A stretch of 26,090 nt of DNA from a virus. Shown here in pieces: positions 1 through 24,087 of the stretch (its first letter is position 1; every line of letters starts with the position of its first letter). Below the pieces are notes generated by a model. That model was not told the origin of the DNA. It made no database searches and saw only the letters and a list, made by a program, of their open reading frames with translations. Position numbers and translations under genes: made by a program. The stretch covers positions 1 to 26,090 of IMG/VR virus record IMGVR_UViG_3300026077_000023. One strand, written 5' to 3'.

Positions 1-2350
1 TAGGAACTGCATAATAGTTCTCACCTATGATATAAGGGAATACAGGTTCATTAGATGAACTAACAGTTACAAAGTAAGCATAGACACCATCAGGATACTC
101 AGGTGTTATACAGTAACGACCATTGTTCTGATCTAGTGTTCCTTGCTTATGTGTATACTTGTAATCCTCAAAGAAAGTACCTAGTGGGTAAGCAGCCGTG
201 GAAGGTCCTATCGATCTTCCCAAATTCAATGAGTAACTAGAGCTCATCTTACTGATAGTACTAGTACTGTCTAGGGGATTGCTGTATCCGTAAGCACCAT
301 AGATAGGGTTCCCATCATAAGCATACCCCATAATAGGACTATGAGCCGAACCATCGTCGCCACTACGCAACGCAGCAGGAACAGGATTTGTTTGAGTTAA
401 CTTATACCTATCCTTAGTCCATGAGAGAATACTCGCATCTGCTGTCGCTCCAGAACCAACTGGGATAATATCGATCCGAATATTACCAGGGGAATAACCA
501 CTACCAGCAGTGACTAGGGTACATGCAGTCAACTCACCACTATTTGAGACCTCTGCTTTATATTCCGCAAACCTTCCCTTACCAGCTAAGTCTAAAATTC
601 TGATTACAGGTGGAGATGAATAATACTCACCTGCATTTGCTACGACCATACTGGTGATAGCACCATTTGTTATAACTGGAGTAACTACTGCGTTCCTACC
701 AGAGAGTATCTCTATGGTGGGTGTAGCAGTGTACAACAGTGGTGTATCGATAATAACTGATTCGACTACCTGACCTGCTAACTTAGTCCTTGCAAGACCA
801 GCATCACCGTTTATAAGGACATATGGTTCTTTAGCGTATCCGCTACCCCTATGAGTAACAGTAATTTTCTGAATTGCACCATTAAGTATACTATCAGTGT
901 GCCTTGCACCCATAGCAAGACTACCATCAAGGAAAACACCAATGTCCTTATTGTTGGTTTTATAGATTTCAGTAGTTAGAGTAGGTTCTTTAGGAATAAT
1001 ACGTAACTGATTATTTGGTGACGCAATATAGTAATCATCACCATCCTCAAAGATTGCAGATATGTTAGATAGATCCCATCTAACATTATTAGAAGAATCG
1101 AATACCTTTACATCTGTATTGATAAAACCAGGATCTGATATCTCAAGTCTCTCTCCTACATTAGCATAAGGACTTGGACTGGTGGGTGTAGCACTGTAGA
1201 GTACGCCCAATATGAGTACAGAGTCAGTACCGACACTCACATTAGCAGCGTCATATACTAAATCACCAGCATAATGTGAAGAAGCGGCCGATCTAGTCTT
1301 AATAGTGAACTGATCTATAGTCTTTTCTTCAAAAGTGAAGGTCTCGTTGTTGATATTGAACTTTCCTTTGTCATTCCACCCCATTGTGGAGAACACATCA
1401 ACTACGGTACTGGAATTATCGATATCCGCACTCAAAGTAGTCTTTGCGGATAATATGAACTTACCGTTAACAGTTTCTTCCGCAAGTATCAATTCATACA
1501 AATCGACACCATCATGCCTTCCACTGAAGAGGACGTTATCTATGACCGCAGAAGCGTAGGCCCCGTCTACGTTTTGGACGATCTCTTTTCCGATAAATGA
1601 CTCTGGAGTGCCAGAAAGAATTTTTGCCTTAAGAGAATAATTTTTGATCCAAGTAGACTCAGAAGACTTGATCGTTTGCTCTCTAGGGTATTTTACTTCT
1701 GGAGCAGGATCATCCTTAACTATACATTTGAATAAAAACTTAATTGATTGAGCAGTACCCTTCGATTTATAGAAACTCGCAATATTTTTGATTAAAGTAC
1801 GCTGATCAACGCTCTCATTAAGATATGCAACAGGAAAATCAGGTAAATACTGAGATTCGAAACTTTTTACTAGTGCATAGAGAAAAAGATTACTAATATT
1901 GTATACTTTATCAGCAACAGTGTGATCTGCTGCATTGGTAGTAACAAATGTAGACTCCTTATAGAGATCTCCCAGCTGCGTATTGCCTGATACTCCTCTA
2001 CTGACCTCTAGGAACTGTGTAGCTGATTTAGACTTATAGAAACATATCTCATCATCAACCTTGAGATAACCACTATCAGGAAATGCACTAGTGTCCCCTA
2101 CGGTTAGTGACGTATCCGTTGATTGAGCAAACTGGGTTAACTGTGTATACTGTTGGAGTATTTCCTGATCATAGAAATCAATGTCACGGTATGTTGTGAG
2201 ATGATTCGCAATATCAAGAGGTTGACCCTGTAATTCTAATTGCTCATAGTACTTTTGTACGAACTTTCCGAATAGTTCATACTCTTCGCTTATAAAAGAA
2301 GCGAGTTGATTCTCTATTAATAGTGAGGTCTTCCTTGCAGTCTTAGACAC
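1..2350 (-). CDS. Baseplate structural protein at the gp7 position, YHYH domain (partial, runs off left edge)
   Basis: The frame is open from a GTG start at 2350 to the window edge, giving about 783 visible residues with no stop. The GTG shares one base with the TAG stop of gp6 (TAGTG), so translation is probably coupled. The N-terminus is mostly helical. Around residues 187-205 a segment FYKSKGTAQSIKFLF resembles the phage tail protein I (gpI) family, and T4 gp7 carries a gpI-like domain, so a baseplate-wedge gp7 role is inferred from this segment plus position. The middle has beta-rich repeats with GSGY-type signatures (about residues 498, 573 and 615). Around residues 665-690, GYAYDGNPIYGAYGY matches the YHYH domain signature. 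The C-terminus lies outside the window. Virion structural protein is well supported; the exact gp7 equivalence is less sure. Confidence 0.85.
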   Translation of the reverse strand, partial: MSKTARKTSLLIENQLASFISEEYELFGKFVQKYYEQLELQGQPLDIANHLTTYRDIDFYDQEILQQYTQLTQFAQSTDTSLTVGDTSAFPDSGYLKVDDEICFYKSKSATQFLEVSRGVSGNTQLGDLYKESTFVTTNAADHTVADKVYNISNLFLYALVKSFESQYLPDFPVAYLNESVDQRTLIKNIASFYKSKGTAQSIKFLFKCIVKDDPAPEVKYPREQTIKSSESTWIKNYSLKAKILSGTPESFIGKEIVQNVDGAYASAVIDNVLFSGRHDGVDLYELILAEETVNGKFILSAKTTLSADIDNSSTVVDVFSTMGWNDKGKFNINNETFTFEEKTIDQFTIKTRSAASSHYAGDLVYDAANVSVGTDSVLILGVLYSATPTSPSPYANVGERLEISDPGFINTDVKVFDSSNNVRWDLSNISAIFEDGDDYYIASPNNQLRIIPKEPTLTTEIYKTNNKDIGVFLDGSLAMGARHTDSILNGAIQKITVTHRGSGYAKEPYVLINGDAGLARTKLAGQVVESVIIDTPLLYTATPTIEILSGRNAVVTPVITNGAITSMVVANAGEYYSSPPVIRILDLAGKGRFAEYKAEVSNSGELTACTLVTAGSGYSPGNIRIDIIPVGSGATADASILSWTKDRYKLTQTNPVPAALRSGDDGSAHSPIMGYAYDGNPIYGAYGYSNPLDSTSTISKMSSSYSLNLGRSIGPSTAAYPLGTFFEDYKYTHKQGTLDQNNGRYCITPEYPDGVYAYFVTVSSSNEPVFPYIIGENYYAVP

Positions 2351-4155
2351 TATTCTTTAGTCGCTGTAAATTTGCTCTTTGCTACATCTACGTCAAGATA
2401 TACTTCTCTAAGTACAGTGACATCGTTAGATGCAGGTTTTACACGCAGTTCGATTCTATTATCAGAGAAACTTCCTTGAATGAGGGTCACGTCATATAAC
2501 ATGATCTCACCTTTAGCATAATCAACATCACCCAAAGAGTCATTTAAGATAATTTTCTCGCCTGACACTGGATCTAGTCTATATAGTACTATTTTTCCAG
2601 ATCGATCCTCCAAATACGTGGTATAGTTTGGATATTCTAGTGTTATGAAACCAGTAGAAGAGACCACTGGATTATCACAATCTGTATCAAATGCATTCTG
2701 ATAACAGATCTCATAGAATGTAGATGAATTCAACTGTGCAATAAAATCTTTTCTGAGTGTGACTGAAGTTAGGTTAGATCTAATTGCTCTATCCGACTCA
2801 TCAATGACACTTACAAATTTAGAATATCTGAACTTACCATTGAACTTCTCTGTCTGAGAAGTCTTCAAATATTCTGTGATGCCCTTAGCAGCATTACCTG
2901 CTACTTGTTGCGGAAGTAATTCTGTCTTAGTTCCATCAAAGAAGATATGTGAATCTAATTCAACATACAAAATAGATGGATCAACCAATACTGGTCTAAT
3001 TGATCCAATAGAATACTTCTTCAGATCATTCACAATCTCATTCTTAGTATATGCAGAAAGGAATGATGCATCATTAGGTTTGATAGCAATAAAGACCTTA
3101 CCATAGTCAGGTGGAACTTGCTCTTCTCCACCAAACACAATAATATCACTAATTGCAGGATATACGTTACGTGCAATCACTTCATAGTCAGAACTTGTGA
3201 CTGCTCTGTTCTGTGAAGAGAAAAACTTAGGTGCAAGATACTTGATCTTAGCAATACTCTCAATATCCTCTCCACCCTCTGCTTTTTGCAAAGTGCTGAT
3301 TCCAGTAATAGAGAAAGGTACTGTTAATGTGCTAGTACCATCGTCTAGAACGCCACCAAACGTAAATGTCTTAGCACCATTAACATCTTTGCCGTGAGTG
3401 ACCACATAGGACATCTCAACGACGTTTCCGTTAGCTAATGGTTTTCCTAATACACCGTCTCCAAAGATAACCTCATAAGACTCATCTTCAATCTCATTCA
3501 CAAAATAGATTAATGAATCTGAATTCACACCAGGATCTAGAATGTTATCTGCTTTCTTCCACTCTTCGAAGTCTGTGCTATTTGAGCTATTGTATATCTT
3601 TATCGTTAAAGTGTTGATATCTGCCTTACTATTCTCAATTTTGAACTTCTGTCCTTTCTGGGCTGTGGAAAACGCAGTTCTAGTTGTGACTAACGTACCC
3701 TCAACTATCTCGATATCCCGAAATTGTGCAACACCGTTTGCAACTTCTGCCTTAAAGTCTTTTGTTGCTACAAATTGATAGTTCGTATCGTCAAAATTAG
3801 TTAAAAATCCTGTTCCTGCTTTTAGAAGAACATAATTAGGAGCATTATTCGGAATATTGACGTTAAAATTAAGTCTCGCTGTTGATGCTGTAATTGACTT
3901 GGGAGTATAACCTAACTGTTTCGCCAGAGACACCACATTGTCCCTCAGAGACGCAGAATCCAAGAACAGTTCATTCACTACCATATTGGTATTGAACGCT
4001 GTATAATACGTATTATAAGCAAGTACGTCTAATAGTTGACTTAAGGTAGATCCTTCGAAGTCATAATCGGTAAAATCTGATTCTGCTCTCAAATAATCCT
4101 TGAGAGTTGACTTTATATCTTTAAAGTCAAGATTGGCGAGTTGTGTGTAAGGCAT
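2350..4155 (-). CDS. 6: Baseplate wedge subunit gp6 (baseplate J family)
   Basis: A 601-residue protein with the T4-type gp6 N-terminus (LANLDFKDIKSTLKDYL, then LLDVLAYNTYYTAFNTNMVVNE and LDSASLRDNVVSLAKQLGY). Gp6 forms the dimeric wedge core that ties the baseplate rim together, and its central region belongs to the baseplate J (P2 gpJ) family. The length is close to cyanophage homologues and a little shorter than T4 gp6. The ATG start at 4155 overlaps the gp25 stop as TAATG, and the TAG stop overlaps the GTG of the next gene, so gp25, gp6 and the gp7-position protein form one coupled late operon. Identification is confident. Confidence 0.95.
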   Translation of the reverse strand: MPYTQLANLDFKDIKSTLKDYLRAESDFTDYDFEGSTLSQLLDVLAYNTYYTAFNTNMVVNELFLDSASLRDNVVSLAKQLGYTPKSITASTARLNFNVNIPNNAPNYVLLKAGTGFLTNFDDTNYQFVATKDFKAEVANGVAQFRDIEIVEGTLVTTRTAFSTAQKGQKFKIENSKADINTLTIKIYNSSNSTDFEEWKKADNILDPGVNSDSLIYFVNEIEDESYEVIFGDGVLGKPLANGNVVEMSYVVTHGKDVNGAKTFTFGGVLDDGTSTLTVPFSITGISTLQKAEGGEDIESIAKIKYLAPKFFSSQNRAVTSSDYEVIARNVYPAISDIIVFGGEEQVPPDYGKVFIAIKPNDASFLSAYTKNEIVNDLKKYSIGSIRPVLVDPSILYVELDSHIFFDGTKTELLPQQVAGNAAKGITEYLKTSQTEKFNGKFRYSKFVSVIDESDRAIRSNLTSVTLRKDFIAQLNSSTFYEICYQNAFDTDCDNPVVSSTGFITLEYPNYTTYLEDRSGKIVLYRLDPVSGEKIILNDSLGDVDYAKGEIMLYDVTLIQGSFSDNRIELRVKPASNDVTVLREVYLDVDVAKSKFTATKE

Positions 4156-4553
4156 TATCGTGTACGGCTCAAGAAGAAGTCTACTGTAACAGGAGGTTGT
4201 CTAAGTCCTAAGATCTTATAACTCATCTCTACATCAAATCCATCATCGAATTGATTTGGATCAATGGTTAATGATGTAATCGCAACTCTTGGTTCATACT
4301 CTTGTATAGAACTCATGATTGCTGACTTAATTAAACTCGCAGTAGCGTAATCCAACGGTTCAAATAAAAAACGGCGAAGACTGCTACCCAATTCGGGTTG
4401 AAACAGTCTTTCGCCTTTATTAGTTAATAATAGTGATGTGATTGATTGTTGAATGGCAGCAGCATTCTTTGTAACCAACAAATCGTCAGTTACAGGATGT
4501 TTTTTGAACGTAAGAGATAAATCCTTGAAGGATTGTGTATACTTCGTAGCCAC
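4155..4553 (-). CDS. 25: Baseplate wedge subunit gp25 (gpW/gp25 lysozyme-like fold family)
   Basis: A 132-residue protein with the gp25 family signature: SITSLLLTNKGERLFQPELGSSLRRFLFEP (about residues 38-67), then IKSAIMSSIQEYEPRV. Gp25 sits at the sheath-baseplate junction and helps nucleate the sheath. Despite the family's lysozyme-like name it is structural. The start codon is GTG; no ATG lies near the conserved N-terminus, and the nearest GGAG is about 19 bases upstream. A late-promoter-like TCTAAATA lies at 4579-4586. The stop overlaps the gp6 start. Confidence 0.95.
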   Translation of the reverse strand: MATKYTQSFKDLSLTFKKHPVTDDLLVTKNAAAIQQSITSLLLTNKGERLFQPELGSSLRRFLFEPLDYATASLIKSAIMSSIQEYEPRVAITSLTIDPNQFDDGFDVEMSYKILGLRQPPVTVDFFLSRTR

Positions 4554-10098: not shown

Positions 10099-10347
10099 TT
10101 ATTTATTCTCTACTAGGACACCTGATTTGATAGATTGATTAATAAACTTGCCCACAGACCCTCCTTCTAATAGTTCTTCATGAGCTATGAGTGTTTCTGA
10201 TAGTTTATTAACGAATTCTTGTATATTTTGGCAATTAAACTCATATTCTTTGTTTATATTACTATTATACACTACTTTCACAGTGTTGTCAAGTGTTTCG
10301 ACTGATTTAATCGCACTTGATGTGAATTTTTCGTAAATCATTGACAT
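10099..10347 (-). CDS. KTSC-like small protein (82 aa)
   Basis: The pattern SSAIKSVETLDNTVKVVYNS, an aromatic YEF strand, and a C-terminal GGSVGKFINQSIKSGVL resembles KTSC-domain proteins, small beta-rich proteins of unclear function sometimes linked to RNA or lysyl-tRNA synthetase. The match is partial. Its promoter (cassette F) lies about 175 bases upstream, so the message has an unusually long leader containing inverted repeats. Confidence 0.6.
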   Translation of the reverse strand: MSMIYEKFTSSAIKSVETLDNTVKVVYNSNINKEYEFNCQNIQEFVNKLSETLIAHEELLEGGSVGKFINQSIKSGVLVENK

Positions 10348-10370
10348 TTTAGAGAGTTTGTGTTAGGTTT

Positions 10371-10390
10371 AACTCGAAAAAACTCGAAAA
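10371..10390 (+). repeat. Tandem 10-mer AACTCGAAAA x2
   Basis: Two perfect adjacent copies of AACTCGAAAA occur on the plus strand. The same core in the opposite orientation is repeated at 10536-10555. The 10-base period would place the copies on the same face of the helix. Confidence 0.85.
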
Positions 10391-10462
10391 AACGCAAAAT
10401 ACTTAAAAATAGCTTTCTTAAACTTCTTAAAAAGTCAAAAAAACCATTTTTCGTGCTTTTTC

Positions 10463-10485
10463 GTTTTCCACAGGTTGTGAAAAAC
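10463..10485. repeat. Inverted pair of DnaA-box-like sequences, 3-bp spacer
   Basis: GTTTTCCACA, GGT, TGTGAAAAAC: 10-base arms with one mismatch. One arm is an exact TTTTCCACA. It is transcribed as part of the leader of the KTSC-like gene, so it could also act as an RNA hairpin. Confidence 0.75.
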
Positions 10486-10527
10486 TCAAAAAGACTCTTT
10501 TTTGGCGTTTCCCCGAACTACTCCTTT

Positions 10528-10583
10528 ATTATAGTGTGTTTTCGAGTGTTTTCGAGTCCTTGTGTGACACTTTGAGAAGTGGC
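10528..10583 (-). promoter_or_regulatory. Palindrome-promoter cassette F
   Basis: GCCACTTCTCAAAGTGTC (10566-10583) is followed after 32 bases by TATAAT (10528-10533), then AAAGGAG. The gap carries the tandem TTTTCGAGT 10-mers instead of a terminator. The first gene start is at 10347. Confidence 0.7.
10536..10555 (+). repeat. Tandem 10-mer GTGTTTTCGA x2
   Basis: Two perfect adjacent copies lie between the palindrome and the -10 box of cassette F. Read on the minus strand they contain ACTCGAAAA, the core of the repeat at 10371-10390, so the two arrays face each other. Confidence 0.85.
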
Positions 10584-10668
10584 ACAGGCATACTTGACAT
10601 TCGGTCGCTGGCGGGCTAAGACAACATCTCTAGAGCACCTTACATATATTTTTTAATACATTTTAAAT

Positions 10669-10702
10669 GTTTTCCACAAGCACCCTAAAAACTGTGGAAA
10701 AC
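10669..10702. repeat. Inverted pair of exact DnaA-box-like sequences
   Basis: GTTTTCCACA and TGTGGAAAAC are perfect 10-base arms with a 14-base spacer. It lies 40 bases after the stop of the gene at 10742. It could be a DnaA-binding pair or a transcript-ending hairpin; no T tract follows, which argues against a simple terminator. Confidence 0.8.
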
Positions 10703-10741
10703 TCAGTGTTACCAATGTGCGGAGGATACTATCCAATACTA

Positions 10742-10945
10742 TCATTCTTGTAATTCATCTAGTCTGTATGCATACCCACGTTGCCTACTTTTATGTAGTG
10801 TGTTATACTGTCTTTCGAGTACAGATTTGATGTCTCTGAGTGATGCTGCTAGTAATGCTTCATCAGTCATGTCTATGAATAAATCTTCTAAATGTGCTAC
10901 ATGTTCTAGTGCAAATAATAGTTTAGTTTGATTGTTCATTCTCAT
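10742..10945 (-). CDS. Helical hypothetical protein (67 aa)
   Basis: The protein begins MRMNNQTKLLFALEHVAHLE and is almost entirely helical and charged, ending RLDELQE. The ATG overlaps the previous stop (ATGA). It is the last gene of the four-gene unit begun at 11991. Function not recognised. Confidence 0.7.
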   Translation of the reverse strand: MRMNNQTKLLFALEHVAHLEDLFIDMTDEALLAASLRDIKSVLERQYNTLHKSRQRGYAYRLDELQE

Positions 10946-15069: not shown

Positions 15070-15287
15070 TCTAGTATGATATCTCTTACTCTTTCTCTGT
15101 CTAAACTATCTCCACCACCCCAAGTATAATGTACATACTCTAGGTCACCTTTCTCAATTCTCTCAATGTACACATCAAGTGCATCTTCAATCTTCTGACT
15201 AGTTAATCCTTCAATAGGATATAATACATCCTCATGTGTTGGTAAGTAGAATGATTCAACATACTCAACGAATTCTGGTCTAGTCAT
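15060..15287 (-). CDS. Acidic hypothetical protein (75 aa)
   Basis: The protein begins MTRPEFVEYVESFYLPTHED and ends RVRDIILETV, with a VHYTWGGGDS turn. AAAGGA lies upstream of the ATG. It is a single-gene unit under cassette H. Function not recognised. Confidence 0.75.
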   Translation of the reverse strand: MTRPEFVEYVESFYLPTHEDVLYPIEGLTSQKIEDALDVYIERIEKGDLEYVHYTWGGGDSLDRERVRDIILETV

Positions 15288-15312
15288 GTGTTCCTTTGTT
15301 TGTTATGTACTT

Positions 15313-15367
15313 ATTATAATGCACACAACAACACATGCAACCAATCATGGTCACTTTTACAACTGTC
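15313..15367 (-). promoter_or_regulatory. Palindrome-promoter cassette H
   Basis: GACAGTTGTAAAAGTGAC (15350-15367) is followed after 31 bases by TATAAT (15313-15318). The palindrome contributes the TGA stop of the gene at 15366. No terminator hairpin is clear in the gap. The leader is about 19 bases. Confidence 0.75.
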
Positions 15368-15560
15368 ACAGTCTTTCTACTTCATCCCAATATGACCTGT
15401 ATATTAATACATTACATTGTCTAAATCCATGCATACTATTCTTATCTTCCCACTCTCGAACACATAACGTAAAGTATTGTGTGTCTATAAATGTGATGAA
15501 CCCTTCATCATCATTGAGTTTAACACGGTCACCGACCGCAAAAGGAAAGTTCTTCTGCAT
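15366..15560 (-). CDS. Small beta-rich hypothetical protein (64 aa)
   Basis: The start at 15560 (MQKNFPFAVGDRVKLNDDEG) lies 2 bases after the stop of the upstream gene and is preferred over a longer frame that would overlap it. VGDRVKLNDDEGFITFID resembles SH3/KOW-like beta-barrel starts, followed by WDEVERL at the end. A familiar pattern in marine T4-like phages but of unknown function. Confidence 0.7.
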   Translation of the reverse strand: MQKNFPFAVGDRVKLNDDEGFITFIDTQYFTLCVREWEDKNSMHGFRQCNVLIYRSYWDEVERL

Positions 15561-15562
15561 TG

Positions 15563-15781
15563 TTATAAAGCAAACTTGCTTATAGAAATGCATGTCATGA
15601 ATGATAGCATAATAACTACATCCCATCCTTTAGTACGAATGAAATATGGTATGCTAATCACATCAGCAATGGCATGTATGACTGTACCAACGAGTACATT
15701 AACATGTAATATAATAAAATATGAAATCACAATCATACATGATCCTATGATCCTACTGATTGTGTCCACCTTTAAACTCAT
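15563..15781 (-). CDS. Small multi-pass membrane protein (72 aa)
   Basis: The start at 15781 (MSLKVDTISRIIGSCMIVIS) forms an ATGA overlap with the zinc-ribbon gene; a start four codons earlier is possible. It has two or three hydrophobic segments (about residues 10-30, 32-46 and 54-70). It is likely in the host inner or thylakoid membrane. Function not recognised. Confidence 0.7.
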   Translation of the reverse strand: MSLKVDTISRIIGSCMIVISYFIILHVNVLVGTVIHAIADVISIPYFIRTKGWDVVIMLSFMTCISISKFAL

Positions 15782-15936
15782 AGCAAATTCCATTGTAATT
15801 TGGGTACTGACTCCTCACAGTGAGCACATGTTAATGCTGACCAACTAAAATGATATACTCTTGATGGTTGATCACAGCATGGACATACTATAATCTTACC
15901 ATTTGATGATGCTCTTGTTAGACTGGTTACTTGCAT
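15778..15936 (-). CDS. Zinc-ribbon protein (52 aa)
   Basis: Two CxxC knuckles, Cys18-Cys21 (CPCC) and Cys37-Cys40 (CAHC), spaced as in a zinc ribbon. The start is taken at 15936 (MQVTSLTRASSNGKIIVCPC); a TTG at 15966 would add 10 residues. Zinc ribbons in phages often bind DNA, RNA or RNA polymerase; which applies here is unknown. Confidence 0.7.
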   Translation of the reverse strand: MQVTSLTRASSNGKIIVCPCCDQPSRVYHFSWSALTCAHCEESVPKLQWNLL

Positions 15937-15994
15937 GAGACCACGTATAAAGGATGAGAGAAACAAAAGAGGACGTGTCCTTGTGTATGATTAC

Positions 15995-16034
15995 CTCAAC
16001 ATCATGTGTCTGCTTCTAAGTCAGACTAGTTGAG
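15995..16034 (-). other. Structured leader hairpin
   Basis: In the leader after cassette I (about 115 bases) the minus strand can fold as CTCAAC-TA-GTCTG-loop-CAGAC-ACATGAT-GTTGAG, a 6-bp outer and a 5-bp inner stem. No gene fits the leader. It might be a regulatory or stabilising RNA structure. Confidence 0.4.
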
Positions 16035-16058
16035 AACCTCTCTTTGTTTCCCAAGAGT

Positions 16059-16114
16059 ATTATAACGTGTAGTGTGTCCGTTGCAACCATTTGTTAGACA
16101 CTTGTAACACTGTC
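16059..16114 (-). promoter_or_regulatory. Palindrome-promoter cassette I
   Basis: GACAGTGTTACAAGTGTC (16097-16114) is followed after 32 bases by TATAAT (16059-16064). A TTGCAA 16 bases before the -10 box may act as a partial -35. It drives the zinc-ribbon, membrane and 64-aa genes. Confidence 0.7.
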
Positions 16115-16117
16115 ACA

Positions 16118-16474
16118 TTATAAGGTGCTACCCCTGTGAAACTTTGCTATATCTGACATAGTAATGTGAGCAGCATAATTATACTTGTTTTGCTCTGCTT
16201 TACCAGGTATAGTAGTTGGTGGTGTATATTCATACCCAACTTCAGGATCTGGTGTCCAGTCAGGGTCTTTACCCCACTCATTCCAGTCCTCCTCATTCAA
16301 TAATATTGTTTTAGGTGCTTTACCACTCATTTTATTTGCATCATCCGCATGTTGTTGATGAAATGAGCGTAGTCTCTCTAACTCTGACTCTAAATCAGCA
16401 TGAAACTCATCAACAGATGCATCATCAAGATACATTTGAATTGCTTGTGATAGCATTGTTTTCCTGCTTTTCAT
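16118..16474 (-). CDS. Acidic hypothetical protein (118 aa)
   Basis: The protein begins MKSRKTMLSQAIQMYLDDAS, is helical to about residue 48, then carries a Trp/Pro/Glu-rich segment (NEEDWNEWGKDPDWTPDPEV) and a basic end. The ATG overlaps the previous stop (ATGA). It is the last gene of the methyltransferase unit. Function not recognised. Confidence 0.7.
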   Translation of the reverse strand: MKSRKTMLSQAIQMYLDDASVDEFHADLESELERLRSFHQQHADDANKMSGKAPKTILLNEEDWNEWGKDPDWTPDPEVGYEYTPPTTIPGKAEQNKYNYAAHITMSDIAKFHRGSTL

Positions 16475-16671
16475 ACTGGTCTCCGTAATGTTGTGAGATA
16501 TTCTAATACATGTGCTCTTACTTCCATCAGTTCATTGAAACACTTCTGGTTATGAGCACACCCACGTAGGGCATTGTCTGGTTTGTGTACTGATTCTATG
16601 TATAAATCCAGTCCACGATTCCATTTCATATCATGTGATTCATGATCATCAATGGTTTGCTGATCTTTCAT
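16471..16671 (-). CDS. Small hypothetical protein (66 aa)
   Basis: The protein begins MKDQQTIDDHESHDMKWNRG and ends YLTTLRRPV, with a helical C-terminal half. ATGA overlaps occur at both ends. Function not recognised; co-translated with the methyltransferase. Confidence 0.7.
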   Translation of the reverse strand: MKDQQTIDDHESHDMKWNRGLDLYIESVHKPDNALRGCAHNQKCFNELMEVRAHVLEYLTTLRRPV

Positions 16672-17444
16672 AAGAACTTCTTCAGTGGTGTGTGACGTGT
16701 AATACGATCATTTGCCATCTTAACATACTCTTCATGAATTTCAATACCAATGTATCGTCTGTCATAATCTAAGCATGATATAGCAGTAGTGCCTGACCCT
16801 ATGAAAGGATCAAGAACTAGATCATTCACAAAACTATAGTACTGAACTATCTTATCTGATAGTTGTTGTGGATATGGTGCTAGATGTTTTGATGTAGTCT
16901 CTGGATTGAACTGCCATACATTGCTACGTTCATACCCATCAGGAACTAATGACTTCTCTAGTATCTCAGGTGAGCATGATCGTACTGTCTTATCTATAAG
17001 AAATGGTGCAGGTTTCTTGAATATTAATATAGTCTCTGTAACAAGATTTGGTTTGTATGCTACTGGTTTACGATGCTGATAGAATCCACCGTTACGATTA
17101 ACAGCAGATCCTTCAGGTTTCAACCATATAATATCATCAATGTATTGCCATCCTAGTCTCTCCATAATACTGAAGAAGTGGAATGGTATCGCAAGTCTCT
17201 TACTCTCATGTGCTCTTGACTCACGTGCTTGTATTACTGGTGATAAATTAACAGCACACATTCTACCTTGTTCAGTTACTCTGAATACTTCACGAAATAT
17301 ATCCTCAAGGAATTGTAGATACTTATCATATGTGGGCCACTGTGCGTATGCCTTTGCATTATAATATGGAGGTGATGTACATGTTAACTGTACACTCTCC
17401 TCCATGTTAGACAAATAATTTAATGCGTCATCATGTATGATCAT
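16668..17444 (-). CDS. DNA methyltransferase, N4-cytosine/N6-adenine family (258 aa)
   Basis: The catalytic motif SPPYY (residues 24-28) comes first and the SAM-binding motif DPFIGSGTT (212-220) last, the beta-class order of the N6_N4_Mtase family. SPPY is most often seen in N4-cytosine enzymes, but adenine is not excluded. It transfers a methyl group from S-adenosylmethionine to DNA. It is about 60 residues shorter than the methyltransferase at 17880. The ATG overlaps the HNH stop (ATGA), and the stop overlaps the next gene. It may protect phage DNA from host restriction. The target site is unknown. Confidence 0.9.
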   Translation of the reverse strand: MIIHDDALNYLSNMEESVQLTCTSPPYYNAKAYAQWPTYDKYLQFLEDIFREVFRVTEQGRMCAVNLSPVIQARESRAHESKRLAIPFHFFSIMERLGWQYIDDIIWLKPEGSAVNRNGGFYQHRKPVAYKPNLVTETILIFKKPAPFLIDKTVRSCSPEILEKSLVPDGYERSNVWQFNPETTSKHLAPYPQQLSDKIVQYYSFVNDLVLDPFIGSGTTAISCLDYDRRYIGIEIHEEYVKMANDRITRHTPLKKFL

Positions 17445-17860
17445 CCAATGCTCCTCGATGATGATTTGTTACTGTTGCAGTCTCCATTTAATATTGATTT
17501 ACGTCCATGACATAGTTTACAGTATGTCTTGACATTACTAGGAACATTGTTATGATGATCACCATCTAAATGGTCTAGGTCAAGACTAGTCTCAAATCCT
17601 ACAAATGTAGATACAGGACATGTCCATCCTAAATGACCATCATTATTTTCACAATAGTTCTTTTTATGTCTTGTAACACCAGGTCTATCAACACCTTTCT
17701 TACGTGCAGTAGCACAACTAGAGCATTCTGATTTGAATGACCAATACTTCCACTCTCTTACTTGTACATTATTACTACATCCATCATTGACACATGTAGG
17801 GAGTGTGTGTCCTTCAGCAAAGAATCTTGCTTTCTGTTGTTGTGATACTGTAGAAGGCAT
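17441..17860 (-). CDS. HNH-type nuclease-like protein with Cys clusters (139 aa)
   Basis: The C-terminal part has an HNH-like core: LDLDHLDGDHHNNVPSNVKT (residues 93-112) with Asp96-His97, His102-His103, Asn104 and Asn109, followed by CKLCHGRKSI (Cys114, Cys117, His118). The N-terminal part has zinc-binding pairs (Cys23/Cys28 and Cys46/Cys49). It could be a free-standing homing endonuclease, or the nuclease partner of a methyltransferase given the flanking genes. The start follows cassette J by a leader of about 15 bases. Confidence 0.75.
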   Translation of the reverse strand: MPSTVSQQQKARFFAEGHTLPTCVNDGCSNNVQVREWKYWSFKSECSSCATARKKGVDRPGVTRHKKNYCENNDGHLGWTCPVSTFVGFETSLDLDHLDGDHHNNVPSNVKTYCKLCHGRKSILNGDCNSNKSSSRSIG

Positions 17861-17879
17861 CGTTTAACTAACGCTACTA

Positions 17880-18833
17880 CTAGTATAGCGGAAGTTTGTT
17901 GGGTATGCTATTAATACGGTCAGTTTGTAAACTGGCATAGTCCTTATGGAGTTCACACCCAATATATGATCTATTATGTTTCTTAGCAACCATCGCAGTA
18001 GTACCTGATCCTAAGAATGGATCAAGTATGATGTCACCCTCCTCTGATCCTGCTAGAATGCATGGTTCAATGAGATCAGGTGGATACACTGCAAAATGAG
18101 CACCCTTGTAAGGTTTATTGGTTACTGACCACACACTACGCTTATTCTTTGTCTTATAACTCTTAGTCAAGCCTGTGTGAGGGGATAGACCAGTGCCAGC
18201 ATTATGATACTTACCTTGAGTACGATCTCTAGTACCCCAATCTTTTGCTGGTTCTTTGATTGCTTCATTGTTATAATAATATCTTTTACTCTTACTCAAT
18301 AAAAATATGTACTCATGTGATTTAGTACAACGATCACGTACACTCTCAGGCATAGGATTTGGTTTGTTCCAAATAATATCTTGTCTTAGATACCAACCAT
18401 CAGCACGTAATGCAAATGCAAGCATCCATGGAATACCAATAAGATCCTTCTCTTTCAATCCTTCAAGTTTGTTTCCTCTACGAGGACACACATCTGGTAG
18501 ATCTTGTTTTGTATTTGAGACTGTTTGTTTAACCAGTCCTTGTCCTCGCCCTGGCCTGTAATTATAGTAACTATCCCCAATATTAAGCCAAAGAGTTCCA
18601 TCATCTGTGAGCACATTCTTTACACCTCTGAATACTTCTACTAAATTCTCAACAAATTCTTCAGGTGTCTGCTCTTGACCTATTTGGTCATCCTCCCCAC
18701 CATAGTCTCTTAGACCATAGTAAGGTGGAGATGTGACACACATACGTGGTCTTTCAGCAATACCTGTAGTAATATGTGCATGTAGTGTGTCAAGTGTTTT
18801 ACGACAATCACCAAATAATACTGTATCTCTCAT
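17880..18833 (-). CDS. DNA methyltransferase, N4-cytosine/N6-adenine family (317 aa)
   Basis: TSPPYYGLRDYG (residues 34-45) is the catalytic motif IV and DPFLGSGTTA (271-280) the SAM-binding motif I, in beta-class order. A longer variable middle (about residues 90-245) would carry target recognition. It is clearly a different enzyme from the one at 16668. The ATG overlaps the previous stop (ATGA). The C-terminal codons contain the cassette J palindrome. Likely role: modification of phage DNA. The target sequence is unknown. Confidence 0.92.
   Translation of the reverse strand: MRDTVLFGDCRKTLDTLHAHITTGIAERPRMCVTSPPYYGLRDYGGEDDQIGQEQTPEEFVENLVEVFRGVKNVLTDDGTLWLNIGDSYYNYRPGRGQGLVKQTVSNTKQDLPDVCPRRGNKLEGLKEKDLIGIPWMLAFALRADGWYLRQDIIWNKPNPMPESVRDRCTKSHEYIFLLSKSKRYYYNNEAIKEPAKDWGTRDRTQGKYHNAGTGLSPHTGLTKSYKTKNKRSVWSVTNKPYKGAHFAVYPPDLIEPCILAGSEEGDIILDPFLGSGTTAMVAKKHNRSYIGCELHKDYASLQTDRINSIPNKLPLY
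17882..17936 (-). promoter_or_regulatory. Palindrome-promoter cassette J, inside the methyltransferase gene
   Basis: GCCAGTTTACAAACTGAC (17919-17936) is followed after 31 bases by TATACT (17882-17887). The palindrome is in coding sequence for residues 299-304 of the upstream methyltransferase and the -10 box overlaps its stop. It would give the HNH-methyltransferase unit its own promoter. Confidence 0.6.
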
Positions 18834-19054
18834 TTATAATGTTTCATCATAAGGTTGAAAGCAACATCATAGTTGCATGCTTTGAGTATTTCACCATTGT
18901 GTATGACCATGTATCTGTTATGCTTACCCATGACAGGGACAGCAGCCCACTCACCATAAGGTTGTTTGGTAACAAAACCTGGCATCATAAACTTATCTTC
19001 TAATAGATATGGGTTTTCTAGTTTCTCTAGGTTGGGTCTGGTACGTTTTGCCAT
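18830..19054 (-). CDS. Small basic hypothetical protein (74 aa)
   Basis: The protein begins MAKRTRPNLEKLENPYLLED and contains YMVIHNGEILKACNYDVAFN near the C-terminus. It overlaps the upstream gene by 28 bases and the methyltransferase by ATGA. Function not recognised. Confidence 0.7.
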   Translation of the reverse strand: MAKRTRPNLEKLENPYLLEDKFMMPGFVTKQPYGEWAAVPVMGKHNRYMVIHNGEILKACNYDVAFNLMMKHYK

Positions 19055-19380
19055 ACTATATCACCGTATGTATCTAAGACATACGCATTTATGAAATGAT
19101 CTGAGTCTGGACAGTCTGCTAACTTGGGGAACCAAGCACCAGCATTCACTGTAGCAGCGTCCTCTGCCTCGAATCTGATAGTAGTATACACCCCTTGCTT
19201 GATGATGTCAAGTACATACTCATCGATGAACTCTTCGTACCATGTATTGACAGTTGCTTTCTTGCTTGCATCAAGAGCATTATATGTGCTAAGGTCCATG
19301 TATACCAAATAACATTGGTTACGATTAGCATAGTATTCCATCAACTGAAATACTGATAGTTCGTTACCTTGTACAATCAT
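19027..19380 (-). CDS. Hypothetical protein downstream of the tail-fibre genes (117 aa)
   Basis: The protein begins MIVQGNELSVFQLMEYYANR and ends WQNVPDPT, with an aromatic, acidic composition. The ATG overlaps the stop of the chaperone-like gene (ATGA). Position suggests a link with tail-fibre assembly. Function not recognised. Confidence 0.7.
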   Translation of the reverse strand: MIVQGNELSVFQLMEYYANRNQCYLVYMDLSTYNALDASKKATVNTWYEEFIDEYVLDIIKQGVYTTIRFEAEDAATVNAGAWFPKLADCPDSDHFINAYVLDTYGDIVWQNVPDPT

Positions 19381-20252
19381 GACATATTACCTAACTCATC
19401 ACTTGCATCTTTAATAATTTTCTCTAAGAAATCTCTATTCTTCTCAGTATCTAGATCATCTCTAGGAGTTTCTATTCTATCTGTTTTAATCTTATCATAC
19501 TCAACCAACATATCATTGAAGTATGTCTTATCAGTCTCTGACTTGAGTGTCAAGAAATATGCTATCTTATCTCTAAACTTCTTAAGTCTGTGCTTACCCA
19601 TTTCAATGAACTGGTCAGCAGTTGCAAGATAATCTTCAGTTGGGAAGTCTACCTTGTATACTTTATTATAAAACTCTGGAGATATAGGGAACTTAGTATT
19701 CTCTGTGTCATTAGTAAACTCAGCAGAATCAGTTAGTTCTCTTAGTTTAGTTCTATACAATGTATACTGTGCTTTAGTATCAGCATCAATTGGTGCATCA
19801 GCTAACTGTGTCCAATCTGTTTCATCCAACAAGAAATTTCTTGCTAGTCTTATACTAAATGGTGATACTGCTTTCTGCTTAGAATACATTCTAGCTAATT
19901 CATCTTGGAACTCATCGTTCTCAAGTGAATCAATTAAATAGAATCCTTCAATTAGTTTATCTTTAAATGCAGTCGCTTCAGCAGCACCAACTGCCTCCAT
20001 CTCATAGTCAACCCACTTAAATGTGTTAGTCTTAAAGTCTTTTACATACTTCCTACGCTTTGCTGTGTATGAATCATTGGTAAAATACTGAAACGTGATA
20101 AGTTTATCCTTGTCACTATCCCATAAAGGGTATAACAATGGAGTGAGTGTATCCTTCCAATATGATTCAGGAATAGTCTTTGGTGTACCGTTGTACTCAA
20201 TCTCCTGATTGATTACATCTAACTGTACTTGCAGTACTGGTGCATCTGCCAT
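19377..20252 (-). CDS. Tail-fibre-associated protein with a tail assembly chaperone-like segment (291 aa)
   Basis: Residues about 133-172 (RLARNFLLDETDWTQLADAP, then KAQYTLYRTKLREL) match the RN.LL..TDW..L.D....Y..YR..LR pattern of phage tail assembly chaperone (Phage_tail_APC) proteins. The rest is acidic and helical. The family assists folding or attachment of tail fibres, which fits its place directly after the large adhesin gene. CGGAG precedes the ATG. Fibre chaperone or fibre-linked structural protein are both possible. Confidence 0.7.
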   Translation of the reverse strand: MADAPVLQVQLDVINQEIEYNGTPKTIPESYWKDTLTPLLYPLWDSDKDKLITFQYFTNDSYTAKRRKYVKDFKTNTFKWVDYEMEAVGAAEATAFKDKLIEGFYLIDSLENDEFQDELARMYSKQKAVSPFSIRLARNFLLDETDWTQLADAPIDADTKAQYTLYRTKLRELTDSAEFTNDTENTKFPISPEFYNKVYKVDFPTEDYLATADQFIEMGKHRLKKFRDKIAYFLTLKSETDKTYFNDMLVEYDKIKTDRIETPRDDLDTEKNRDFLEKIIKDASDELGNMS

Positions 20253-20277
20253 TGTATTATTAGTATCTCCGTAGTAT

Positions 20278-23200
20278 TTAGAAAGCTTTAATCAAGTACT
20301 TGCATAATATGTAAGGATGTAAGAGTGGTACATCAATATCAGGATCAATAGTTGCTTGTGGTTCTATCTTAGTAGTTGATTTTAATGTCAACGTTGCTTC
20401 AGAAGCACCAAGACCAGAACTATATGTAATACCTGGACCTGTCTCACCTTGAACAGTATAACTTAGTGAGTCAACACCTGGTTTACTGATCTTACCAGCA
20501 GTAGGAACAAATACAAGACCACTCACCTTTTCATTCCAATAAATGAATTCACATATACCATAGTGGTCACTGTCTGCATCATTATCATTGGCAGCACTAG
20601 GTGTTGCACGTGGTTGTTCAATCTTTATCTTAGTACCAACTGCTTTAGCATCAATTGGCATTGCTACTGAATAAGTATACCATTTAGTAGCACCACTTGC
20701 ACCATCCCATGCTTGACTGAGTACAGGAACATCACCAATAATAGGATCAGTTCTAACTGAGTTTGGTGTGATAATAGTATCAATCAATGTCCAACTAGTT
20801 GAGTCAGCAGGTTGATAGTATACACGTAACACTTCTTCTGGTACGTTACCACCATTGACACCATTACCTCTACATGCCTTGATGGAGAAATAATTACAAT
20901 TGGTTGTGTCAACTGGATTTAATGTAATGTATCGTGTGCCAGTTGTACCACTGAGACCACCGAACTTGACGTAGTTAGTATATTGTGATGAACTATTAGA
21001 AGTTAAGAATAATTGATCAACAACACCAGCAGCATCATCAACTGTGGATGTAACCTTAGTACCACCACCAGCTCCATTCATAACATAGATGTATGGTATC
21101 TCTGTGTATCCACCACCAGCAGAATCTAAATTGATTGCTGTTACTTTATTAGATGCTACGGTTACTGACGCAGTAGCAGCAGTAGTAGCACCACCACCAA
21201 CAATATAAACATCTGGTACTTGTGTGGTTGGTAGTTTAAAGTTGCCAGCAGTACCAGTACCAGTACCATTACCAACAATATTTACATCCCATACTGTGTT
21301 TGATTGTGATCCTGATGCAATAATGTCACCTGTTGATGTACCTGTTGATCCACCAGTGTATCCAACAATCTTACCCAATCCAATCTTAACATATCCACCA
21401 TCACCATTAGATGTAGAACCAGTAGTTTGTCCACCTGGATTGACACCTGCTCCACCAGCACCAACTGTGACTGATACTGAACTAGGATTGTTTAAGTTAG
21501 TCCATTGTATTGATCCACCCCAGTTACCACCTGATCCACCACCACCGCCACCAGCAGTCCAGTAGTCATTATTATATGTGACACTCAGGGTAACACCACC
21601 AGTACCATTATGTGAATGACTGAATGAGTTTAAACTAAACCAATCACTACGATAAGAACTAACACCTGATACACCACCAGATCCACCACCGTGACCTCCA
21701 TCTGCACCAGGTCCACCACCAGGTCCACCTGATGCTCCACCGTTTCCTTGTCCACCAAATGATATACCATTTCTAGCGACTCCAGCACCACCTGCTCCAC
21801 CGCCACCACCGATACATCCGTAACCACCGCCATTACCACCAGCACCTGGTCCTATTGGTTGAGTTGTACCATCTGGTTGAGAATATCCTGATGGTGGTCC
21901 TTGACCATTTTGACCAGCACCACCGTCATATCCGTCTCCACCACCGCCACCGCCTCCAGCAGCACCTCCAAGAATTTGTGTACCACGCATAATCATGCCA
22001 GCAGCACCACCTCCACCGCCGTCAGCATCATTATGTCCTGCACCACCTGTTCCACCATTAGCACCCATGCTATTGGTTCCACCAGCACCACCATTTACAG
22101 GTCCACCATTTTGACCTGGACTACCAACTTTGACATTCCACCCACCAGTTGAGAAACTACTCAACTGTGAACTGATCATATCAATGACCATAACCGCACC
22201 TTGATATCCCACACGGTTACCACGAGCAGTACCACCGTTTCCACCTCTTACTGTGAATTGAACTGCACTTGGATTACTAATACCCTGAGTATTAAATGTA
22301 CCATCACTATTAAGTGTCTCTGTATATGTACCACTTTGTCCACCGACACGTAGATTTATACCAGCAGTTCCATTACCATAGTCACCAAACACTCCAGCAG
22401 TACCACCACCGCCAGGATCATTTGGAAAGTCTGCGATTGGCCAACCATCTGATGTCTGACCATTAGCACCTGCACCACCATCCTGACCATCTTGATTACC
22501 AGTAGCTGAAACACTACCAGATTGTGTGGCAGTACCACCAGCTCCACCTTGTCCTCCTTGCTGTCCGTTGGATGCACCACCGCCTCCACCACCAGCAGAG
22601 ACCAAGTTAAGATCACTACCAACAACTATACTACTACTGCCACCATCATTACCAGCAACATTACCAGCAGCACCAGATCCACCACCACCAACAACTGTGT
22701 ATATTAATCTGTCTGGTGTACCTGAGATATTTCCTAAGTTAATGCTGTATGATCCTGGTGATGAATATGTCCACTCATCTGAATAATCATATACAGGAGT
22801 ACCACCAGTGTTAACTGTTCTACCACCAATATTAGATGAACCAGTAAACTGTTTCATTACTGGGTCAGGTATATAAGTTTGGAATATGTATGAACCAGCA
22901 CCTTGAGCACCTGATGCCATGTAGAACTGTTCATTTGCTGATGCTGTTGGATCTTTAAGTGATCCACAACCACCAGCACCACCAAATGCATCAAATACAT
23001 CATAGGTAGCAACAGTATTATCTGTAATAGGACTTCTTAATAGTCCATGCTTGTGTGTGAATACAATACCACCAGTAGGATACCATCTAGCAAGTCTACC
23101 TCTACCTTCACGATAGTCTTGTAGATACCTATCACCACCTGCTTCTGCTTGATAACTATTAAATCCTGGTACAGTATGATATACTGTGTGACTATGTTGT

Positions 23201-24087
23201 GGAGCACCAGAGAGTTTAGTCTCTCTCATTGATATATCAATCTGTTGTTGACCAATAATAGTACACTCAACAGTCTCAACAACATTCTCATATCCAGTAG
23301 TAACTATTCTACCAAGTGAGAAGTATTCATCTTGAGCATCTTTATCAAGATACCATGCACCACCTGTAGTACCAACACCAAGAGTTGAGTTACCTACGTT
23401 AGGAGAGTTGTTACCAAATACAGGACCATTACCAACAATCTTTCTTGTTCTTAAATCAGGTACTTTAAATGTTCCTAAGTATGGATCACCCCAGTAGTCC
23501 ATTACATTATTAGTATTGATACCTTCAATAGAACCATCAACAGTATTAATTCTTGCTACAGCAGTAGCACCTGATCCATTACCACCAGTAAATTGTACTG
23601 TTGGTGGTGAAGTATATCCTGCTCCAGGATTAACAACATCAACACGTACAATTACACCATTCTCAACAACTGCACCAGCAGTTGCTTGCACACCAGCACC
23701 ACCACCAGGAGCAGTAATTCCTACAAGTGGTAGTGTTGTGTATCCTGATCCACCATTTGTTACATCAATACCACTACTAGCTCTACCACCATACTTGTTA
23801 CCAATTAATTCAAATAATCCTGGAAAATCTCCAATATTAAACTCATCACCATTACAATACAAATAACCTTGATGAGTATATGCAGGATCATCTTTTACTG
23901 CATATGCATTACCAGTAGTTTCTGTTAGAGCAGGGAACGTGGTAGCACCAAACTTAACAAAGTTATGGTCTAGTGAGTTTGTACCAGTCTTTAAATTGGG
24001 TACAATAGCACCCACTGGTGTTGTATCTACGGTAAGATCTGTGTAGAAACCTGTCCGAGCATTTCTGTATAATTGTGATGTTGTCAT
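20278..24087 (-). CDS. Giant glycine-rich tail fibre/adhesin with collar domain (1269 aa)
   Basis: The N-terminal region carries a phage tail collar domain (GYLYCNGDEFNIGDFPGLFE, about residues 73-92) and its end FKVPDLRTRKIVGNG (about 206-220). Between them lie two GSGY-type repeats (about 107-176). A His cluster (HSHTVYHT near 297) and THKH near 349 may bind metal. Residues about 460-890 are dominated by long Gly runs with Gly-Ala/Asn/Asp (many GGGG and GGAGG), which could form stacked polyglycine-II helices as in the S16 adhesin gp38. The C-terminus YLIKAF matches the other fibres. It probably recognises the host surface. TAATG links it to the upstream fibre gene. Confidence 0.85.
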   Translation of the reverse strand: MTTSQLYRNARTGFYTDLTVDTTPVGAIVPNLKTGTNSLDHNFVKFGATTFPALTETTGNAYAVKDDPAYTHQGYLYCNGDEFNIGDFPGLFELIGNKYGGRASSGIDVTNGGSGYTTLPLVGITAPGGGAGVQATAGAVVENGVIVRVDVVNPGAGYTSPPTVQFTGGNGSGATAVARINTVDGSIEGINTNNVMDYWGDPYLGTFKVPDLRTRKIVGNGPVFGNNSPNVGNSTLGVGTTGGAWYLDKDAQDEYFSLGRIVTTGYENVVETVECTIIGQQQIDISMRETKLSGAPQHSHTVYHTVPGFNSYQAEAGGDRYLQDYREGRGRLARWYPTGGIVFTHKHGLLRSPITDNTVATYDVFDAFGGAGGCGSLKDPTASANEQFYMASGAQGAGSYIFQTYIPDPVMKQFTGSSNIGGRTVNTGGTPVYDYSDEWTYSSPGSYSINLGNISGTPDRLIYTVVGGGGSGAAGNVAGNDGGSSSIVVGSDLNLVSAGGGGGGASNGQQGGQGGAGGTATQSGSVSATGNQDGQDGGAGANGQTSDGWPIADFPNDPGGGGTAGVFGDYGNGTAGINLRVGGQSGTYTETLNSDGTFNTQGISNPSAVQFTVRGGNGGTARGNRVGYQGAVMVIDMISSQLSSFSTGGWNVKVGSPGQNGGPVNGGAGGTNSMGANGGTGGAGHNDADGGGGGAAGMIMRGTQILGGAAGGGGGGGDGYDGGAGQNGQGPPSGYSQPDGTTQPIGPGAGGNGGGYGCIGGGGGAGGAGVARNGISFGGQGNGGASGGPGGGPGADGGHGGGSGGVSGVSSYRSDWFSLNSFSHSHNGTGGVTLSVTYNNDYWTAGGGGGGSGGNWGGSIQWTNLNNPSSVSVTVGAGGAGVNPGGQTTGSTSNGDGGYVKIGLGKIVGYTGGSTGTSTGDIIASGSQSNTVWDVNIVGNGTGTGTAGNFKLPTTQVPDVYIVGGGATTAATASVTVASNKVTAINLDSAGGGYTEIPYIYVMNGAGGGTKVTSTVDDAAGVVDQLFLTSNSSSQYTNYVKFGGLSGTTGTRYITLNPVDTTNCNYFSIKACRGNGVNGGNVPEEVLRVYYQPADSTSWTLIDTIITPNSVRTDPIIGDVPVLSQAWDGASGATKWYTYSVAMPIDAKAVGTKIKIEQPRATPSAANDNDADSDHYGICEFIYWNEKVSGLVFVPTAGKISKPGVDSLSYTVQGETGPGITYSSGLGASEATLTLKSTTKIEPQATIDPDIDVPLLHPYILCKYLIKAF

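Follow-up and report, generated by a model that had tools for sequence, protein, structure and literature searches.

A 394-bp intergenic gap in a T4-like cyanophage genome fragment contains an element that is conserved, single-copy and non-coding, and that carries DnaA boxes of the host type. Judged from its sequence, the most likely function of this element is that of a replication origin, and we give a probability of roughly 0.57 to the reading that it serves as the phage's early (or main) origin, a module that recruits host DnaA. These viruses, in other words, may borrow the starter protein of their host to begin replicating.

The window, by which we mean the whole 26,090-base stretch of a virus record that was analysed, is part of the genome of a T4-like cyanophage (Kyanoviridae), carries T4-type baseplate genes and has its large ORFs on the minus strand. 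The candidate region fills the gap at 10348-10741 between two small minus-strand ORFs, and the gene order runs from the element through small genes to the baseplate genes. When the gap was compared with cyanophage sequences, Blastn matches were weak, and the main ones fell in several genera of the Kyanoviridae. The features of the region and its neighbourhood, in window coordinates, are as follows.

2350-4155: baseplate gene, phrog_219, gene 6-like
4155-4553: baseplate gene, phrog_261, taken as gene 25-like by position
10099-10347, minus strand: flanking ORF of 82 aa, phrog_4357 (function unknown), E 1.7e-20
10348-10520: inverted-repeat segment rich in A/T tracts (31% GC), serving as the leader of the minus-strand promoter and as a candidate site of unwinding
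10371-10390, plus strand: tandem 10-mers, two copies of AACTCGAAAA
10464-10472, plus strand: exact DnaA-type box TTTTCCACA, by sequence match
10476-10484, minus strand: near-box TTTTTCACA, one mismatch, by sequence match
10488-10502: 15-base palindrome AAAAAGACTCTTTTT, central base unpaired
10528-10533, minus strand: TATAAT, -10 box of the leftward promoter
10536-10557, minus strand: two direct repeats ACTCGAAAAC, inverted relative to 10371-10390 and just upstream of the TATAAT at 10528-10533
10563-10586: imperfect palindrome TGTGACAC-TTTGAGAA-GTGGCACA, possible operator, read from the sequence, with columns conserved across loci
10594-10626, plus strand: conserved 33-bp core, TTGACATTCG..GGGCTAAGACAACA
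10640-10669: AT-rich spacer separating the core from the boxes, from sequence and alignment
10670-10678, plus strand: exact DnaA-type box TTTTCCACA, by sequence match
10693-10701, minus strand: exact DnaA-type box TTTTCCACA, inverted relative to the 10670 box, 23 bp start to start
10742-10945, minus strand: flanking ORF of 67 aa, no match in the family search

An earlier note on this DNA had described three exact boxes and one near-box forming two inverted pairs, and all of them were confirmed at their sites. The window contains 4 exact copies of TTTTCCACA, compared with 0.388 expected, and three exact boxes inside 240 bp were obtained in none of 500 dinucleotide shuffles of the window. When one mismatch was allowed, the total in the window was not enriched (10 against 9.91 expected), so the signal resides in the exact copies and their clustering; the remaining exact box lies at 3664-3672, distant from the region. 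The AT-rich DNA that the note reported is present (31% GC in 10348-10520 and 36% in 10348-10741, compared with 39% window-wide), as is the 15-base palindrome, which is perfect save for its central base, and the highest A/T-tract content of the entire 26 kb is found at 10361-10371. The tandem 10-mers are there and face each other, but they are better regarded as inverted repeats rich in A/T tracts, together with direct repeats lying upstream of the minus-strand -10 box, and the 10-mer sequence is not kept between genera. The best conserved part of the region is the 33-bp core at 10594-10626, which was absent from the earlier note.

Comparison of loci gave the core consensus TTGAC-NN-TCG-N9-G-N-GCTAA-RMC-AACA. 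A looser form of this pattern occurs in exactly one copy in each of eight of nine complete cyanophage genomes; in Syn9, the ninth, the exact core form is absent, and a degenerate core, read by eye, stands beside a box pair. The position of the Syn9 element was set from the boxes, and hence the evidence from Syn9 is partly circular. A core search pattern containing no box retrieved 57 viral contig stretches which, together with eight named phages and the window, gave 66 loci, or 51 once duplicates and loci with short flanks were removed. The core is antisense to the flanking genes, pointing away from all of them, and has no consensus -10. An ORF-masked ranking of conserved non-coding sequence, in which short ORFs and further intergenic regions act as confounders, placed the element of S-PM2 among the top stretches, where it was not unique.

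At the 51 core-found loci there were 82 exact copies of TTTTCCACA, compared with 0.375 expected from mononucleotide shuffles, and because the loci share ancestry, these counts are not independent events. An exact box was present anywhere in 33 loci and missing from 18, with at least one box downstream of the core in 29 and two or more in 25. The arrays were located mostly 70-160 bp past the start of the core, with the leftward promoter on the opposite side, and 27 of the 28 same-strand neighbours had a spacing of exactly 12 bp. An unbiased scan asked of every 9-mer in the nine complete genomes whether two copies fell within 60 bp of each other; the most widely clustered 9-mer was TTTTCCACA (six of nine genomes; the runner-up reached four). 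All six cluster-bearing genomes have a cluster at the element, and in five of them it is the sole cluster site. A second inverted TTTTCCACA pair was seen in S-RIM32, ~1 kb from the element at 61859-61880 (L006 2071-2092). Whole-genome totals of TTTTCCACA are low (8, 5, 0, 7, 5, 0, 12 and 2 in eight genomes, and 4 in Syn9), and with clustering at one conserved site the box is not equally frequent genome-wide; an equal frequency was what the earlier note had named as telling against an origin.

The layout also recurs in related phages, where the same note had proposed to look for it, with box clusters at the core in many and some relatives boxless. The core is present with no boxes beside it in S-RSM4, S-B43 and S-CAM4. 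Four of ten further isolates (S-SM2, S-ShM2, Syn19 and S-SM1) have box pairs beside core-like sequence, recognized by pattern match in S-ShM2 and Syn19 and by eye in S-SM1 and S-SM2. No paired boxes were found in P-SSM2, P-SSM4, P-HM2, P-RSM4, S-SSM7, S-CRM01 or T4, the core having been sought within 20 kb each in P-SSM4 and S-CRM01. In total, paired boxes occur in 10 of 19 cyanophage isolates, the first nine of which were not sampled at random, eight of them being Blast hits, and in 0 of the 4 that their records give as isolated on Prochlorococcus (P-SSM2, P-SSM4, P-HM2 and P-RSM4). The tandem-box pattern alone is unspecific: among the matches listed, a core-like match lay at most 350 bp upstream in 13 of 110 new viral stretches. 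Tandem TTTTCCACA with 12-bp spacing was seen in many viral contigs that lack the cyanophage core (e.g., L171, L186, L198, and L262), and some coreless contigs have four or more boxes within 600 bp; these are possible DnaA-box origins of other phages.

The sequence TTTTCCACA is the cyanobacterial DnaA box, and cyanobacterial DnaA(IV) gel-shifts it, according to the available text of PMC4674748. The phage box is identical to it at all nine positions, as the earlier note had supposed in calling the boxes cyanobacterial. In the cyanobacterial class, paired boxes were detected in 159 of 194 genomes, compared with 4 having a reversed control pattern, and in a Nostoc the paired boxes adjoin dnaN, beside AT-rich DNA. 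The host group of T4-like marine cyanophages was marked by CsoS2, and 20 host loci were chosen from 99 with a dnaN match in the order of a CsoS2-positive genome; genomes of 2.4-2.8 Mb were dropped as marine Synechococcus hosts, with CsoS2 in 0 of 12. Upstream of dnaN in the host order there were 14 exact copies of TTTTCCACA in 11 of the 20 stretches, along with many one-mismatch boxes (e.g., TTTTCCACC and TTTTCCACT), and DnaA domain IV is encoded in all 61 host-order genomes. Tight exact box pairs are rare in the host group, occurring in 1 of 11 alpha-cyanobacterial genomes. The DnaA-trio, (TAG)3 beside a box, was found in none of the 51 phage loci; in the host loci L523 and L526 it could be recognized by eye.

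On the core flank opposite the main box array, A and T tracts form long imperfect inverted repeats. A/T-tract content near the element ranks first in the genome in five of nine genomes, inverted 8-mer content at the element in four, and helically phased tract amplitude, as a raw value that includes tract content, also in four; the tract-rich segments of Syn9 and Syn33 are ordinary. The window's minus strand folds over 10348-10520 with a z of -3.55 (-3.66 over 178 nt), and the minus strand of the segment reached z values of -2.6 or below in 11 of 14 loci. Since the segment is an inverted repeat, folding z cannot tell RNA from DNA. The core and boxes gave no consensus pairs or RNA fold in 21 sequences, so this part more likely acts as DNA, and an RNA reading of it was rejected. 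Rfam searches of six loci returned nothing at gathering score, with sub-threshold matches only, in the window and S-PM2.

The earlier note's promoter with a long leader corresponds to the minus-strand TATAAT at 10528-10533, which would give a ~175-base leader to the ORF beginning at 10347. This -10 box is conserved in position: 27 of 51 loci have ATTATA at -110 to -50 relative to the core, compared with 2.0 expected from shuffling. A consensus -35 is missing for it, as is a consensus -10 for the plus-strand TTGACA at 10594. A perfect TTGACA-17-TATAAT promoter was noticed on the minus strand at window 10264-10292, within the ORF at 10099-10347. In Microcystis phage Mic1 (L013 ~1501-1700), about four tandem copies of TGTGACACTTT..TGGCACA..TTGACA resemble the window palindrome at 10563-10586.

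The S-RSM4 and S-B43 genomes contain zero copies of TTTTCCACA; at their elements the boxes are replaced by an inverted repeat on TTGATTCTCA / TTATTGAGAA, which is not a DnaA box, with a further copy about 50-70 bp on, and three of the five genome copies of this repeat in S-RSM4 are located at the element. Among the 51 loci, 14 have the TTGATTCTCA/TTATTGAGAA module, 29 have downstream boxes, 1 combines the two, and 6 are devoid of these repeats and of boxes altogether. Examples of this alternative inverted repeat near the core, where it stands in for the boxes, are L007 3369-3519 and L010. The exchange of boxes for the alternative repeat argues that both are binding sites, and also that the boxes are dispensable in some relatives. 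Tentatively, and at somewhat less than even odds, we propose that the large family of lytic T4-like cyanophages has one modular origin with an exchangeable initiator-binding part, consisting of host DnaA boxes in many lineages and, in sister lineages, of another inverted repeat swapped in at a similar distance from the conserved core.

What the analysis shows are conserved clusters of boxes that match the host oriC box, DnaA in the hosts, the tract-rich segment, the single copy and the position between genes 5 and 6; DnaA binding, duplex opening, priming and origin activity at the element are our inferences. Host DnaA would bind the TTTTCCACA boxes arrayed downstream of the core as well as the 10464-10484 pair. 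Bound DnaA and the A/T-tract segment of inverted repeats (curved, or easy to open) would together open the duplex. After opening, phage gp59, gp41, and gp61 would load, and divergent transcription from the promoter region might give primer RNA or aid opening, as in T4.

Genes 25 and 6 are downstream of the element in the window, Syn1 and Syn9, and in Syn9 and Syn1 gp25 and gp6 are 5-6 kb away from it; on the Syn1 map, gp5 occupies 12.5-15.4 kb, the element 58.7-59.0 kb, and gp25/gp6 are at 64.0/64.4 kb. In T4, oriE is at position 79355, near the end of gene 5 and upstream of gene 6, and the cyanophage element likewise lies in the gene 5-6 interval, although this interval is far longer than in T4, placing the element ~42 kb from gene 5 in Syn1. 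According to the T4 record, the primer RNA of oriE is complementary to the transcript of gene 5; the core of the cyanophage element, too, runs antisense to the genes around it, and the shared position and antisense core are suggestive of a likeness to oriE. T4 oriE is characterized by 12-nt iterons and by RepEA/RepEB; the cyanophage boxes have a spacing of 12 bp and a different sequence, and paired TTTTCCACA is a feature that T4 itself does not have. Near T4 oriE, repeats recurring every 24 nt fall within the coding sequence of gene 5 (L558 3403-3570), and may reflect protein repeats in that reading frame. At T4 oriF and oriG a promoter is paired with an AT-rich unwinding element, and T4 has several origins, some used via R-loops, according to the available text of a review that, in those sections, does not mention DnaA (PMC3016281). 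A promoter-like -10 and AT-rich DNA are present at the cyanophage element, and since T4 uses several origins, cyanophages may have others too. The promoter of an oriF/oriG-type origin is a MotA-dependent middle promoter, and cyanophages are not known to have MotA.

With the cyanobacterial oriC upstream of dnaN, the element shares TTTTCCACA beside AT-rich DNA; unlike that origin, it has no dnaN or DnaA-trio, keeps a strict 12-bp spacing and is located in a lytic phage. Extrachromosomal replicons whose origins depend on DnaA, P1 oriR among them, similarly combine DnaA boxes with other repeats, and they also encode a Rep protein that binds iterons, whereas no Rep protein was identified for the cyanophage element. 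An Ori-Finder-type prediction with DnaA boxes exists for another lytic phage in the available text of PMC11512268, so the mere presence of DnaA boxes in a phage has a precedent. Our search of the literature on cyanophage and cyanomyovirus origins, judged mostly by title, found nothing on DnaA boxes in a T4-like cyanophage.

Several observations count against a DnaA-dependent origin. GC skew, a check proposed in the earlier note, gave no origin signal in the nine complete genomes, with no origin/terminus switch at the element, and the missing DnaA-trio, the boxless lineages, the rarity of tight pairs in hosts (1/11) and the ordinary tract segment of Syn9 and Syn33 weigh in the same direction. 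The element might instead be a divergent early regulatory region with a leftward promoter, structured leader and operator repeats, where DnaA or another factor at the boxes regulates transcription and not replication. The conserved minus-strand TATAAT (27/51 loci), the direct repeats and palindrome at the expected upstream positions, and the leader folding (z at or below -2.6 in 11/14 loci) are in keeping with this, but the core, the most strongly conserved stretch, is oriented away from every flanking gene and lacks a consensus -10, the box arrays are mostly beyond the core and away from the leftward promoter, and the single core copy of eight of nine genomes is at the most tract-rich site in five of nine; we consider regulation alone unlikely. 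It is improbable, in our judgement, that the protein at the boxes is an initiator or regulator encoded by the phage, with a site that coincidentally equals a DnaA box, and that the alternative repeat is the site of a relative of this protein. The 14 of 51 loci with TTGATTCTCA/TTATTGAGAA, 1 of which shares it with downstream boxes, would be accommodated by such a protein, given that this repeat is not a DnaA box, but the motif equals the cyanobacterial DnaA box at all nine positions, and family searches of the ORFs adjoining the element gave no DNA-binding match (two neighbour ORFs matched KTSC below the cut-off).

A decoy that titrates host DnaA and so halts host chromosome replication would explain why the phage box equals the host box, and phage copy number would multiply the sites. 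However, the boxes at the site are few, a decoy would need no core, fixed position or tract-rich neighbour, and the clusters are confined to one place in five of the six complete genomes having any, making this role very improbable. We give almost no credence to a chance cluster, in view of the 0 of 500 shuffles and the conservation across many genera, or to a tRNA remnant. The latter derives from the S-PM2 record, which puts a tRNA-Leu over the core, but ARAGORN found no tRNA in 25 of 25 loci and the annotated stretch folds no better than shuffles, and the tRNA reading was rejected. In the S-PM2 record AJ630128, at 15256-23375 (L005), nine tRNA features are annotated where ARAGORN finds none, and the annotation coordinates look misplaced.

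For Syn9, a single theta origin is so far a prediction, according to the available text of PMC2984593. The element gives exact coordinates in cultured isolates from ten named genera, among them 19.2-19.6 kb in the S-PM2 record and 52.5-52.8 kb in Syn9. If the modular origin proposed above is true, T4-type replication in these phages would depend on a host initiator, unlike that of T4. If host DnaA is needed, phage production would be tied to host replication control, and the box-free lineages would provide natural controls.
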